A stretch of 64,000 bases of DNA from NCBI GenBank assembly GCA_027485165.1, contig JAIXRN010000014.1:1-64000 (forward strand). Direction: 5' to 3'. Position 1 is the first letter of the stretch, and each line of letters begins with the position of its first letter. Of the stretch, positions 21,640 through 46,142 are shown piece by piece. The position numbers were made by a program, and so were the translations under genes. The notes under the pieces were generated by a model that was given only the letters and a program-made list of their open reading frames with translations, searched no databases and had not been told where the DNA came from. The stretch comes from Rubrivivax sp. (GTDB taxonomy: Bacteria > Pseudomonadota > Gammaproteobacteria > Burkholderiales > Burkholderiaceae_C).

Positions 21640-21791
21640 TCCTACTTTTTTCGTTGTGGTGGCGAATTGTCGCCCGGACCCCGGCTTCCCCCCTGAACGA
21701 GGGGTTGGCCCCAGCGGTCACGACGCGGGCTGGCTAACGATGGCGGAACGGTCGCCGGTCAATCTCCGCCCTGCCCCCTTGGAGGAAGACC

Positions 21792-24700
21792 ATGTTCTCG
21801 TCTATGCCCGTGAATTCGCCCGCCCGTCGTCGCCATCGCGCCCTGCGTGCCCGTCATGCCTTGGCCATGGCCGCCGCCGCCCTGCTGGGCACCGCCGCAG
21901 CACCCCCGGCGCAGGCGGCGATCTGCACCTGGAACCCCGCCACCGGCAACTGGGCCAGCGCGCTGAACTGGACCTGCGGCATCGTGCCCACCAACGGCGC
22001 CGCCGACACGGCCATCATCGGCGCCGGGCTGACCAGCATCGTCAACGACCAGCAAAGCCCGGGTGTCTTCCGCAACGTGCGCAACCTGTCGAATGCCGGC
22101 ACGCTGCAGATCGATGCCTTCGGCTTCACGCTGGGTAGCGGCGGCAGCAGCACCAACACCGGCGCCATCAACGTCGGCGGTGTCAGCACCGCTACCTTGC
22201 AGGTGCTGCACAACATCAACAACGCCGGCGGCAGCATCAACGTCGGCAACGGCAGCACGGTCAGCCTTTCAGGCGCCGTCATCACCGGTGGCACCGTCAA
22301 CACCACGGGCACGGGCGTGCTCGTGCCCACGGCCAGCAATGCGAACCTGCTGAGCGGGGTCAGCTTCAATGGCGGCATCAACATGTCGGCGAACAGCATC
22401 CTGCGCGTGTCGAGCGGGCTCACGCTCAACGGCGACATCGCACTGAATGCCAACAGCGTGCTGGCCTTCGCAGGCAACCAGACCCTGGGCGGCAACGGCA
22501 ACATCGTGCTGGGCAATACCGGCAGCAGCAACCGCGCCCTGAGCCTGGAAGGCGCCACCGTGCTGACCCTGGGTTCGGGCATCACCGTCAGCGGCCAGAG
22601 CGGCACTTTGGGGCAGACCTACCTGGCTGGCGGTGCGCAGTCGATCATCAACAACGGCCGCATTGCGGCCAACGTCAGTGGCGGCAGCTTCAGCCTGGAA
22701 CCGAATGGCGGCGTGACCAACAACGGCGTGCTCGAAGCCCAGAACGGCGGCACCCTGGTCTTGAACGCCAACGTCAGCGGCGGCCCGGCCGGCAGCATCG
22801 TGGCCGGTACCGGCAGCACGGTGCTGCAGAACGGCGTCACGCTCAGCGGCAACATCAGCACCTCGGGCAGTGGCAGCTTCCGCGCCAGTGCCAGCAACTC
22901 CAATGTGCTGTCGGGCGTCAGCTTCTCCGGCACATTGGACCTGGCCAGCGCCAACGCCGTCCAGCGGGTCACTGGCGGGCTGGTGCTCAATGGCACCGTC
23001 AACGTGAACAGCAACAGCGTGCTGGCCTTCAATGGCACGCAGACGCTGTCTGGCGCCGGCACGGTCGTGCTGGGCAACACGGGCCCTTCCAACCGCGGTC
23101 TCAGCCTGGAAAGCAATACCGTGCTGACCCTGGGCCCCGACATCGTCGTACGCGGCCAGAACGGCGTGCTCGGGGAAACCTACTTGAGCGGCGGCACGCA
23201 GTCGATCGTCAACAACGGCCGCATCTCGGCCGACGTGCTAGGCGGCACCGTGACGCTGGCGCCCAATGCCGGCACCACCAACAACGGCATCCTGGAAGCG
23301 CAGAACGGCGGCACCCTGGTGCTGGCCAGCAACGTCGCCGGCACCGCCGGCGGCAGCATCCGCGCCGGCGCCGGCAGCACCGTGCTGCAAAGTGGTGTCA
23401 CCCTCAGCGGCACCATCGCCACGCAAGGCGGCGGCAACATCCGGCCCACGGCCAGCAACAGCAACGTCCTGGCCGGCGTCAGCTTCAACGGCGCACTGGA
23501 CATGGCCACCGGCAACGCCATCGAACGCGTCACCGGCGGCCTGGTGCTGAACGGCAGCATCAACCTGAACGCCAACAGTGTGCTGTCGTTCACTGGCGAC
23601 CAGACCCTGTCGGGCAATGGCACGATCACCCTGGGCGGCACCGGGTCCAGCAACCGCGCGCTCAGCCTGGAAGGCGCGACCGTGCTGACCCTGGGCTCGG
23701 GCATCCTGGTGCAGGGGGAGAACGGAACGCTGGGGCAGACCTACCTGGCTGGCGGCGTGCAGTCGATCGTCAACAACGGCCGCATCTCGGCCAATGTGAA
23801 CAACGGCAATCTCAACCTGGTGCCCAATGCCGGCATCGTCAACAACGGCGTACTCGAAGCGGCCAACGGTGGCCGGCTGACGCTGTCCAGCCATGTCGTC
23901 GGTGCGGCCGGCAGCAGCATCGTGGCCGGTGCTGGCAGCACGGTGGTGCAGAACGGCGTCACGCTCAGCGGCACCATCAACACCACCGGTTCAGGGAATT
24001 TCCGCGCCACCGCCGACAACGCCAACTTCCTGAATGGCGTCAGCTTCAACGGCACACTGGACCTGGCATCGGCCAATGCCGTCGAACGCGTCACGGGCGG
24101 GCTCACGCTCAACGGCCGCATCGACCTGAACGCCAACAGTGTGTTGTCCTTCAGCGGCGACCAGAGCCTGTCCGGTAGCGGCGAACTGGTGCTGGGTGGC
24201 ACCGGGGCCAGCAACCGCGCGCTCAGCCTGGAGGGCGCGACCGTGCTCACCCTGGGGGCGAACATCGTCGTCCGCGGCGAGAACGGGACGCTGGGCCAGA
24301 CCTACCTGGCTGGGGGCACGCAGGCCATCGTCAACAATGGCCGCATCTCGGCCAATGTGAGCGGCGGCACCCTGACGCTGGCGCCGAATGCCGGCACGAC
24401 GAACAACGGCGTGCTGGAAGCCCAGAGCGGCGGCACGCTGGTCCTGTCCAGCAACGTCACGGGCACGCCAGCGGGCCAGATCCGCGCTGGCGCCGGCAGC
24501 ACCGTGGTGCAGAACGGTGTGACGCTGAGTGGCGTCATCAACACCAGCGGCGATGGCAATTTCAGGCCGACGGCGGACAACAACAACATCCTGTCCGGGG
24601 TCAGCTTCAGCGGTGTGCTGAACATGGCCTCGACCAACGGTGTCGAACGCGTCGCGGGCGGGCTCACGCTCAACGGCCGCATCGACCTGAACGCCAACAG

Positions 24701-26846
24701 CGTGCTGTCCTTCAACGGCAGCCAGACCCTGGGCGGCACCGGCAGCATCGTGCTGGGCAACAGCGGCGCCAGCAACCGGGCGCTCAGCCTGGAAGGCGCC
24801 ACGACGCTGACCATCGGCCCGGACATCACCGTGCGCGGCACGAGCGGCATCCTGGGCCAGACCTACCTGGCCGGCGGCAGCCAGTCGATCGTCAACAACG
24901 GCAGCTTCATTTCCGACGGCGGCGGGCTGATCACCGTGGCGCCTGGCACCGCCTTCGTCAACAACGGCCTGGCGCGTGCGCAATCCGGCAGCCTGACGGT
25001 GGCGGCACCGCTGTCGGGCACTGGCACCCTGCAGGCCGACCCGAGCGGGCAGCTCAACCTGCCGAACGGGGCCAAGGCCCAGGGCCGGCTGGTGCTGACG
25101 GGCGCGGGTGCCAACATCGCACTGGGCACCGGCAACCTGACGATCAGCAGCGACTACACCAACGTGGCCGCCGGCAGCGGCAACGGCTTCAACCGCCGCG
25201 CGGGCGTGACCGGCACGGGCCAGATCTTCGCCGCCGGCAACGTCGCGCCGCTGATCACCGGTGCCGGCGTCAGCGGCGGCGCCACGGCCAATGCCACGCT
25301 GGCGATCGGCAACGTGCGCGTCGGCACGACGGTCTTCAACTACCAGATCAACAACGGCGGCAGCACCGGGCCGACGCTGCGCGGCGCCATCCAGACCAGC
25401 GTCAACGGCGCCAGCCTGAACGACCCTCGCCTGGGCGGGACGGGCGTCACGCCGGGGCTGTTCAATGCCGGTGCGCCCGGCTTCGGCAGCGGCGACCTGG
25501 GCGTCAGCTTCAGCGTCGCTAGCTCAGGGGCCATTGCCCCGCTGACCGGCCAGCTGCTGAACTTCCGCAGCAACTTCGAGAACATCGGCGACCAGAAGCT
25601 GAACATCGTCGTCAGCAGTGGCGCTGCGGCCTACAACGCCGCGGTCGGCAGCGCCACGCCGGCGCCCATCCAGCTGGCAGCGCAACGCGTCGGCGGCAGC
25701 GTGACGCAGGCCCTGACGATCACCAACACCGCACCCGCGGGCGCCTTCAGCGAAGACCTGAACGCCCAGTTCGGGCCCGCCACCGGCGCGGCGCTGGGGG
25801 CGGGCAGTGTCACGGGCGTGCTGGCGGGCGGCAGCAGTGGTGGATCAGGCAGCCTGGCGGTCGGTGTCGACACGACGGTGTCGGGCGTGCGCAGCGGCAG
25901 TGTCACTGTCAACTTCGCCACGGCCGGGGCCGTGGGTGGCGTTGCCAACGGCCTGGGTGTTGCGGCTGCGAACCAGCAGGTCATCGCCGTCAGCGGGAAT
26001 GTCTACGCCCCGGCCGTGGCGCAGCTGAACACGCCTGCGGTGAACTTCGGCATCGTGCGCGTGGGTGACACCGTCGCGCCGCGCAACGTCAGTGTTACCA
26101 ACACGGCCAGTGGCGCGCTCACCGACACCCTGCGCGCCAGCCTGTCGGGTGGTGCGTCGCCCTTCACCGCCAGCGGCACCGCCACGGCGGTGGCCGCCGG
26201 CGCCACCAATGCCAGCAGCCTGGCCGTGACGCTCAACACGGCCGCCGCTGGCGTCTACAGCAGCAGCGGCAGCGTCAGCTTCACGAGCCAGAACCCCGAG
26301 ATGGCCGACCTGCCGCTGGGCACGGCCAGCGTGGGCTTCACGGCCCAGGTGAACAATCTGGCCGCGACGACCCTGGCGCACACCGGCGCCGGCAGCTTCA
26401 GTGGCAGCGCGCTGAGCTACACGCTGAACTTCGGCACCGTGCTGACGGGTGCCGCTGGCGGCACGGCCACGCTGAGCCTGGCCAACAGCGCCACGGGCCC
26501 GGCCGACGCGCTGGCCGGCAGCTTCAACCTGGGCGGCCTGCTGGCGGGCGACCCGTTCGCGCTGGGCGGCTTCGCCAGCTTCAGCAACCTGGCGGCGGGC
26601 AGCAGCCTGAACGGGCTGACGGTCAGCTTTGGTGGCACGGTGGAAGGCAGCTTTGACCGCGTGATCGTGCTCAACCGCCTGTCGACCAACGGCAGCGGGC
26701 CCGACCTGAGCCTGGCGCCGGTGGAGCTGCGCCTGGTCGGCACGGTGACGGCCGTGCCCGAGCCCGGCACCTGGGCGATGTGGCTGGCCGGCCTGGCCAT
26801 GCTGGGCAGCCTGCTACGCCGCCGCACGCGCATGCTGCAGGCTTGA
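21792..26846 (+). CDS. Large repeat-containing exported PEP-CTERM protein with choice-of-anchor/ASH-like domains
   Basis: 1684 aa; N-terminal signal (LAMAAAALLGTAAAPPAQAAICTW), tandem G/N/S-rich beta-helix-like repeats, and C-terminal VPEPGTWAMWLAGLAMLGSLLRRRTRMLQA. Confidence 0.9.
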   Translation: MFSSMPVNSPARRRHRALRARHALAMAAAALLGTAAAPPAQAAICTWNPATGNWASALNWTCGIVPTNGAADTAIIGAGLTSIVNDQQSPGVFRNVRNLSNAGTLQIDAFGFTLGSGGSSTNTGAINVGGVSTATLQVLHNINNAGGSINVGNGSTVSLSGAVITGGTVNTTGTGVLVPTASNANLLSGVSFNGGINMSANSILRVSSGLTLNGDIALNANSVLAFAGNQTLGGNGNIVLGNTGSSNRALSLEGATVLTLGSGITVSGQSGTLGQTYLAGGAQSIINNGRIAANVSGGSFSLEPNGGVTNNGVLEAQNGGTLVLNANVSGGPAGSIVAGTGSTVLQNGVTLSGNISTSGSGSFRASASNSNVLSGVSFSGTLDLASANAVQRVTGGLVLNGTVNVNSNSVLAFNGTQTLSGAGTVVLGNTGPSNRGLSLESNTVLTLGPDIVVRGQNGVLGETYLSGGTQSIVNNGRISADVLGGTVTLAPNAGTTNNGILEAQNGGTLVLASNVAGTAGGSIRAGAGSTVLQSGVTLSGTIATQGGGNIRPTASNSNVLAGVSFNGALDMATGNAIERVTGGLVLNGSINLNANSVLSFTGDQTLSGNGTITLGGTGSSNRALSLEGATVLTLGSGILVQGENGTLGQTYLAGGVQSIVNNGRISANVNNGNLNLVPNAGIVNNGVLEAANGGRLTLSSHVVGAAGSSIVAGAGSTVVQNGVTLSGTINTTGSGNFRATADNANFLNGVSFNGTLDLASANAVERVTGGLTLNGRIDLNANSVLSFSGDQSLSGSGELVLGGTGASNRALSLEGATVLTLGANIVVRGENGTLGQTYLAGGTQAIVNNGRISANVSGGTLTLAPNAGTTNNGVLEAQSGGTLVLSSNVTGTPAGQIRAGAGSTVVQNGVTLSGVINTSGDGNFRPTADNNNILSGVSFSGVLNMASTNGVERVAGGLTLNGRIDLNANSVLSFNGSQTLGGTGSIVLGNSGASNRALSLEGATTLTIGPDITVRGTSGILGQTYLAGGSQSIVNNGSFISDGGGLITVAPGTAFVNNGLARAQSGSLTVAAPLSGTGTLQADPSGQLNLPNGAKAQGRLVLTGAGANIALGTGNLTISSDYTNVAAGSGNGFNRRAGVTGTGQIFAAGNVAPLITGAGVSGGATANATLAIGNVRVGTTVFNYQINNGGSTGPTLRGAIQTSVNGASLNDPRLGGTGVTPGLFNAGAPGFGSGDLGVSFSVASSGAIAPLTGQLLNFRSNFENIGDQKLNIVVSSGAAAYNAAVGSATPAPIQLAAQRVGGSVTQALTITNTAPAGAFSEDLNAQFGPATGAALGAGSVTGVLAGGSSGGSGSLAVGVDTTVSGVRSGSVTVNFATAGAVGGVANGLGVAAANQQVIAVSGNVYAPAVAQLNTPAVNFGIVRVGDTVAPRNVSVTNTASGALTDTLRASLSGGASPFTASGTATAVAAGATNASSLAVTLNTAAAGVYSSSGSVSFTSQNPEMADLPLGTASVGFTAQVNNLAATTLAHTGAGSFSGSALSYTLNFGTVLTGAAGGTATLSLANSATGPADALAGSFNLGGLLAGDPFALGGFASFSNLAAGSSLNGLTVSFGGTVEGSFDRVIVLNRLSTNGSGPDLSLAPVELRLVGTVTAVPEPGTWAMWLAGLAMLGSLLRRRTRMLQA
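22290..25000 (+). repeat. About five in-frame tandem repeats of 561 bp (187 aa)
   Basis: Two independent anchors recur at exactly 561 bp: NANSV-type codons at 22449, 23010, 23571, 24132, 24693; the CAGACCTACCTGG-type motif at 22614, 23175, 23736, 24297, 24858. Confidence 0.92.
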
Positions 26847-45291: not shown

Positions 45292-45942
45292 TCAGGCCTT
45301 GCGGCGGCGGGCCATGGCGCCAACGGCGGCCAAGCCAGCCAGCATCAGGGCGTAGGTGCCGGGTTCCGGCACGGCCAGGGTCAGGTTGTCGATGGTGGGC
45401 CACAGCGGCGAAGCGCCCTGCACGGCGCTGACGGTCAGCGACACGATGCTGCCGTTGGTCGACACGAAGCCCAGGAAGCTGGAGGTGGTGGCGTTGGTGA
45501 TGGTCTGGGTTAGCGAAGCGCCCGTCGAGTCGACCGCGGTCAGCGTGACGCTGCCAGCGAGGAAAGCGCCGTTGATGTCCGAACCGAAGAAGTTGCCGGC
45601 GATGCCGCGGACCGTCGTGGTGCCACCCGAGAAGCCGTTGAACAGGACGCTGTCGGTGGCCAGGTTGGTCGACAGCCAGGGGTTGGCGGTCGTGCCCGCG
45701 CCGTAGAAACTGCTGGTGCTGGCGGCAGCGGTGTAGGTGTAAACGCCAGCGGTGCGGGTGACCGGCGAAGGCGAAGAACCACTGATGTTGAAGCCAGTGT
45801 AGGTGTCAACACCCGGCAACACGGTCAGGGCGGAGAAGGCGGCCGAGGTCGTGACGACCGTCATGGCGGCCTGTGAAGCGCCGACCGAAACGACCAGGGC
45901 TGCGGCGGCCAGGGCTTGCAGAGCAAATTTGCGGTTCAACAT
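45292..45942 (-). CDS. Small exported PEP-CTERM protein
   Basis: Start MLNRKFALQALAAAALVVSVGASQAA; C-terminal VPEPGTYALMLAGLAAVGAMARRRKA sorting signal. Confidence 0.9.
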   Translation of the reverse strand: MLNRKFALQALAAAALVVSVGASQAAMTVVTTSAAFSALTVLPGVDTYTGFNISGSSPSPVTRTAGVYTYTAAASTSSFYGAGTTANPWLSTNLATDSVLFNGFSGGTTTVRGIAGNFFGSDINGAFLAGSVTLTAVDSTGASLTQTITNATTSSFLGFVSTNGSIVSLTVSAVQGASPLWPTIDNLTLAVPEPGTYALMLAGLAAVGAMARRRKA

Positions 45943-46142
45943 GGGTGTTCCTCTTGGGATGTGATCAGGGGTGAAGGAACCAGCCCAAAGGCCAGATTTC
46001 CTACGCAATTTGAGTGTCAATGTCACATGCTCTCGACGTAAACCCCTGACATGGGGGGTGCTCGACACCTCGAACCAGGGTCGACTTCAGCGCCGCGCTG
46101 TGGTGGTCGAATGGCAGCGGCCAGCGCCTTAAACTGCCCCGC

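Follow-up and report, generated by a model that had tools for sequence, protein, structure and literature searches.

RTX adhesins are exported by type I secretion, and the repeats of one of them, MpAFP, are Ig-like and Ca2+-dependent. In such fibrillar, tandem-repeat adhesins high-order repeats (the RII repeats in MpAFP) build a long rod, and the number of repeats varies among relatives (PMC4083281). A different kind of repeat surface is found in Ag43 and other self-associating autotransporters, whose passengers are beta-solenoids rich in Thr, Asn and Gly; Ag43 solenoids self-associate (PMC8993888). Proteins of the PEP-CTERM/exosortase A (EpsH) class have a signal peptide and a PEP-CTERM tail, are encoded by single-gene units and occur by the dozen in genomes encoding XrtA and PrsK/PrsR/PrsT (Haft et al. 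2006, PMC1569441). Floc formation in Aquincola involves a PEP-CTERM protein, and PepA of Aquincola tertiaricarbonis has been reported to be RpoN-dependent (PMC9850573). Floc- and granule-forming bacteria of wastewater and freshwater are rich in PEP-CTERM proteins, few of which have an assigned shape or job.

The gene described here lies in a 64,000-nucleotide stretch of a Rubrivivax sp. genome (the window) and encodes a protein of 1684 amino acids that combines features of these systems. With the PEP-CTERM class it shares the signal peptide, the tail, the single-gene unit and the accompanying genomic machinery, but its size greatly exceeds that of most PEP-CTERM frames in its own genome, no sigma-54/PrsR promoter was found upstream, and its passenger is a long, repeated, predicted beta-solenoid. 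The passenger is predicted to be of the same fold class as that of Ag43 and is likewise rich in Thr, Asn and Gly; unlike Ag43, however, the protein has an exosortase tail and an Ig-like stalk in place of the autotransporter beta-barrel, as well as a large 187-residue higher-order repeat, and with low TM-scores the likeness is one of fold only. PepA, by its description, comes from a related burkholderial and belongs to a PEP-CTERM/exosortase system, but its role in aggregation has been shown whereas that of the 1684-aa protein is proposed, and no promoter of the RpoN type was seen before the latter. As in the RTX adhesins, high-order repeats probably form a long rod and vary in number among relatives, but here the repeats would consist of solenoid turns, and sorting would rely on a PEP-CTERM tail.

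The gene and its setting

The open reading frame at 21792-26846 (+) is a complete gene whose product of 1684 residues ends in the VPEPGTWAMWLAGLAMLGSLLRRR tail, exactly as described in the sequence-only reading of this DNA. A strong ribosome-binding site (GGAGG, 21781-21785, +), read directly, lies 6 nt before the ATG at 21792. The gene stands alone between genes of the opposite strand: AMP nucleosidase (amn) precedes it, and an aldo/keto reductase (AKR) and hslU-hslV follow, giving the order amn - gene - AKR - hslU - hslV. Motif 1 (TTTACA) and a sigma-54 (PrsR-type) site were not found within the upstream segment 21640-21791; this promoter preceded 99 of 167 proteobacterial PEP-CTERM genes in 2006 and is common, not universal (PMC1569441).

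Foreign origin of the gene as judged by composition was rejected, its GC3 being 0.906 against 0.908 and 0.898 for the neighbours. Searching a plasmid collection by tblastn gave no match to the protein, thus there was no sign of plasmid carriage. Four antisense open reading frames (22619-23143, 23180-23704, 23741-24265 and 24302-24850, all on the minus strand; three of 174 and one of 182 amino acids) follow each other 561 bp apart like the repeats; they are probably shadow frames arising from GC-rich repeated codons rather than genes.

Domain architecture and predicted fold

The protein begins with a predicted Sec signal peptide (residues 1-42, 21792-21917, +), recognized by eye from its RRRHRALRAR n-region, hydrophobic core and AQA cleavage site. 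It is followed by an N-terminal cap (CTWNPATGNW..NWTCGIVPT, residues 43-129, 21918-22178, +). The cap contains two cysteines, and C, W, W, P and D residues in it are nearly invariant across the family; in the structure model confidence was lower in the first 70 residues (59-87).

Five repeat units come next (all +): unit 1 (residues 130-316, 22179-22739), the most divergent and with small indels, units 2, 3 and 4 (residues 317-503, 504-690 and 691-877; 22740-23300, 23301-23861 and 23862-24422), each of 187 amino acids, and unit 5 (residues 878-1063, 24423-24980), whose last part has diverged and which also has small indels. The end of the solenoid and a conserved linking region (residues 1064-1385, 24981-25946, +) are more strongly conserved in the family than any other part, with 54-65% identity to the closer members.

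The C-terminal part consists of a choice-of-anchor D domain with an ASH-like Ig fold (best stretch residues 1396-1500, 25977-26291, +), a further beta-sandwich domain seen in the C-terminal model (residues 1501-1653, 26292-26750, +) and the PEP-CTERM sorting signal, made up of VPEPGT, a transmembrane helix also present in the model, and RRR (26751-26825, +). Choice-of-anchor D was recognized by NF012200 with 87.6 bits (cut-off 45, E 7e-25), three stretches of the protein passing, while the match of PF15780 (ASH) to the C-terminal region stayed below its cut-off. PF07589 (PEP-CTERM) matched the tail with 28.3 bits (cut-off 20.7); two other PEP-CTERM models fell just below theirs, NF035944 (PEPxxWA, 30.3 vs 35) and TIGR02595 (14.8 vs 16). 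Both the choice-of-anchor/ASH-like domains and the sorting tail had been proposed from the sequence, as had the absence of an autotransporter barrel: Pfam found none in the protein, and the C-terminal model shows Ig-like domains and a transmembrane helix. Neither Pfam nor NCBIfam recognized a binding domain, the solenoid passenger matched no named family, and a Pfam search with the repeats and with 17 proteins of the family returned no repeat family, only scattered weak matches to unrelated families.

An AlphaFold2 model was built from the N-cap plus three units aligned with 16 relatives (pLDDT 88.1, pTM 0.82). It was nearly all strand and formed a continuous solenoid, in which the strand pattern recurred at +187 residues, in register. 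Foldseek with this model returned 82 PDB matches at E ≤ 10, of which only two, the self-associating protein 4kh3 and E.coli Ag43 (7koh), had E ≤ 0.001; further Ag43 structures, TibA and the Hbp autotransporter came next. TM-scores to the Ag43/TibA-type matches were low (0.16-0.33), the match therefore indicating the class of solenoid fold and not homology. Searching the PDB by sequence, with the single protein and with a profile, yielded nothing meaningful and no relation to any solved structure. The model supports assignment of the repeats to the beta-solenoid class and agrees with their earlier description as beta-helix adhesin-like. In a model of the C-terminal part (pLDDT 85.5, pTM 0.56) the solenoid ends, Ig-like domains follow and a transmembrane helix closes the chain; in structure comparison these Ig-like domains matched axonemal proteins and cadherins.

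Sorting machinery in the genome

A search for the exosortase, suggested when the gene was first noticed, was successful. The same genome encodes exosortase A (XrtA; TIGR03109, 349 bits, cut-off 208) next to a PEP-CTERM/XrtA glycosyltransferase (TIGR03087), and on the same contig (C21) PrsT, PrsR and PrsK are adjacent in a row, all scoring above their cut-offs. About 70 PEP-CTERM matches were counted in the genome. With exosortase A, the three Prs proteins and this number of co-resident PEP-CTERM sequences present, the reading of the tail as a sorting signal stands. A second exosortase in the genome is XrtB-like and has an EpsI-like partner.

Regularity of the repeats

At the DNA level a 300-nt block occurs five times, with spacings of 561, 561, 561 and 561 bp, and the copies are 72-78% identical to the reference copy. 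Comparison of the protein with itself gave 544 matches at lag 187 (36%), a z of about 37 relative to a flat background; the best unrelated lag reached about 13%. Tandem Repeats Finder reported no array, as was to be expected with a period of 561 bp and a limit of 500 nt.

The SNRALSLE anchor is located at residues 246, 433, 620, 807 and 994, a constant spacing of 187, whereas the GVSF anchor is spaced by 186 between units 1 and 2. Units 2-4 could be aligned without gaps (68-74% identity). In the full alignment pairs with unit 1 contained 4 to 6 gap columns and pairs with unit 5 contained 2, and identity across all five units ranged from 56 to 74%. The claim of a 561-bp spacing without indels over five units thus holds for the 300-nt block, for SNRALSLE and for units 2-4, but not for GVSF or for units 1 and 5. 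Likewise, the repeats described as exact are so in length, not in sequence, and the length is not fixed in the family, where it ranges from 179 to 199 residues. Because of the small indels in units 1 and 5 and the 186-residue GVSF spacing, the original observation is best regarded as partly confirmed, right in substance and slightly overstated. Neither the absence of a solenoid, nor that of an exosortase, nor a breakdown of the spacing beyond these small indels was found, and the interpretation as a whole is partly supported.

Relatives at the same locus

Related sequences were sought in a collection containing one genome per species. Of 199 related genomes, 47 contained matches, many of which covered the tail or the C-terminal domains only; further matches came from nine database loci, among them Rubrivivax, Rhizobacter and two Accumulibacter. 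The repeat proteins are an unnamed family within the known PEP-CTERM class, with repeats for which Pfam and NCBIfam have no model. A literature search of incomplete coverage returned no paper combining PEP-CTERM with beta-helix and none combining it with choice-of-anchor D.

The relatives have three to six units of 179-196 amino acids, one copy reaching 199. Spacing is regular in some and irregular in others: in L067 it is 186, 191, 186 and 185, and L069 and L035 are also uneven by several residues. Several relatives are found at this locus too, with amn and/or hslUV as neighbours, and unit lengths at the locus differ (187, 196, 193 and 185). The two closest ones, L030 and L031, have amn, AKR, hslU and hslV products 87-97% identical to those of the window, yet the C-terminal part of the 1684-aa protein is only 65-68% identical to theirs and the repeats 34-36%. 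Their units are 195-196 residues long and all share an eight-residue insertion. In another genome the gene was found on two contigs (L070 and L071), with amn flanking the front half and hslU the rear half. It seems to have been broken inside the repeats by the assembly; numbers of units taken from short-read assemblies should be treated with caution.

Evolution of the repeat array

A tree of 51 units placed the five units of the 1684-aa protein in a single clade (SH-aLRT 99), and each of the five has its best match inside the same protein. Joining its unit 1 to the unit-1 clade of other proteins was rejected by the AU test (p=0.007), indicating that orthology does not simply follow position in the array. 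Comparable patterns of different age are seen in other members: in L068 the neighbouring units 2 and 3 share 91% identity, whereas the units of the two Accumulibacter proteins match one to one (89-94%). Units 4 and 5 of the 1684-aa protein share an exact tract of 46 bp, above the expectation from codon shuffling (p=0.0035 over all pairs) and compatible with gene conversion. Clustering of units by protein, the neighbouring pair in L068 and the 46-bp tract bear out, indirectly, the earlier suggestion that recombination changes the array. Between units the same codon was used at 69-77% of identical residues (61% expected) and synonymous sites were close to saturated, so homogenisation is not recent overall. 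The repeats have probably been copied anew inside this lineage, next to genes that stayed almost the same.

The strict length had been taken as a sign of selection on fold geometry, which would mean that each unit makes a whole number of solenoid turns. The gapless alignment of units 2-4 and the continuous modelled solenoid with strands in register would fit this. However, units vary in length across the family and by several residues within L067, L069 and L035, they differ at the same syntenic locus, relatives carry the eight-residue insertion in every unit, and a common origin of the five units within the lineage would by itself explain their equal length and is the simpler explanation. Selection on geometry, already weakened by these data, is thus quite improbable, and amplification and/or homogenisation by recombination within the lineage accounts best for the equal length, the family giving no support to selection for exactly 187. 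Exchange of the array as a block, the N-cap and units being swapped with a divergent allele instead of homogenised in place, is a more serious alternative, though still a somewhat doubtful one. Whereas amn and the linking region place the 1684-aa protein with L030/L031, its N-cap is closer to that of L035, L034 and L068 (59-60% vs 34-44% for L030/L031), as are its repeats (45-49% vs 34-36%), and a branch with a support of 100 separates the L030/L031 units. On the other hand, holding the units of the 1684-aa protein and of L030/L031 together was not rejected by the AU test (p=0.25), and fast divergence plus homogenisation would yield the same picture.

Proposed function

The product of 21792-26846 is probably a PEP-CTERM-class protein that is secreted, has the shape of a rod and acts in adhesion or aggregation, and whose array was amplified or homogenised in its lineage. 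Export would proceed by Sec, and the passenger would fold into a long beta-solenoid of five blocks of ~187 residues, joined via the Ig/ASH-like domains to the PEP-CTERM tail. Exosortase A would then cut the tail, leaving the rod at the cell surface or within the exopolysaccharide matrix. There, judged by likeness to the Aquincola floc protein and to Ag43-type solenoids, it may adhere or self-associate and is likely to mediate cell-cell or cell-matrix cohesion in flocs or biofilms. The equal length of the five units would stem from amplification and/or homogenisation by recombination in the lineage.

The rod could also be structural, an S-layer-like matrix scaffold in which the solenoid serves only as a spacer or to fill the exopolysaccharide layer, other PEP-CTERM proteins doing the binding. 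The lack of a recognisable binding domain in Pfam or NCBIfam would suit such a scaffold, the roughly 70 PEP-CTERM sequences of the genome could do the binding instead, and Ig-like C-terminal domains are typical stalk modules. Yet this is unlikely: the best fold matches are passengers of self-associating autotransporters, and the unusually fast change of the repeats beside neighbours conserved at 87-97% fits an exposed recognition surface better than an inert spacer, with the caveat that relaxed constraint could produce the same pattern. A further step from the adhesin reading, that homogenisation of the array creates a lineage-specific recognition surface and makes the protein a self/non-self or kin-specific aggregation factor of floc- and granule-forming bacteria, has only a slim chance of being right. 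If it were, exosortase-anchored solenoid adhesins would exist of which each lineage carries its own recognition surface beside almost unchanged neighbours. The family offers a concrete, testable architecture common to Rubrivivax-like bacteria and Accumulibacter (a predicted Ag43-like solenoid rod, an Ig stalk and an exosortase tail), and since its arrays diverge from lineage to lineage at one and the same locus, the role of repeat number and repeat surface in aggregation is amenable to experiment.

Other PEP-CTERM and repeat genes

The window contains a second, ordinary PEP-CTERM gene (45292-45942, -) of 216 amino acids, whose true start is probably the ATG at 45942. Upstream of it lie GGGTTTACG and TTGACACTCAAATTGC (46005-46020), similar to the PrsR/sigma-54 promoter but with a spacing shorter than published; no such promoter was found before the large gene at 21792-26846. 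Elsewhere in the same genome, a gene on contig C48 (1-2817, L086) shares the C-terminal half (51% identity) behind a different front part. It is cut at the contig end, and its linking region is near-identical to that of L081 from another genome. Beside a family member of 2320 amino acids, an open frame of 2489 amino acids runs on the opposite strand (L032, 2-7468, -) with a strong period of 454 residues. Two giant members, L079 and L082, are 2869 and 3444 amino acids long, and in these the 187-residue period is replaced by periods of 118 residues, the size of a choice-of-anchor D domain, and of 224-265 residues.
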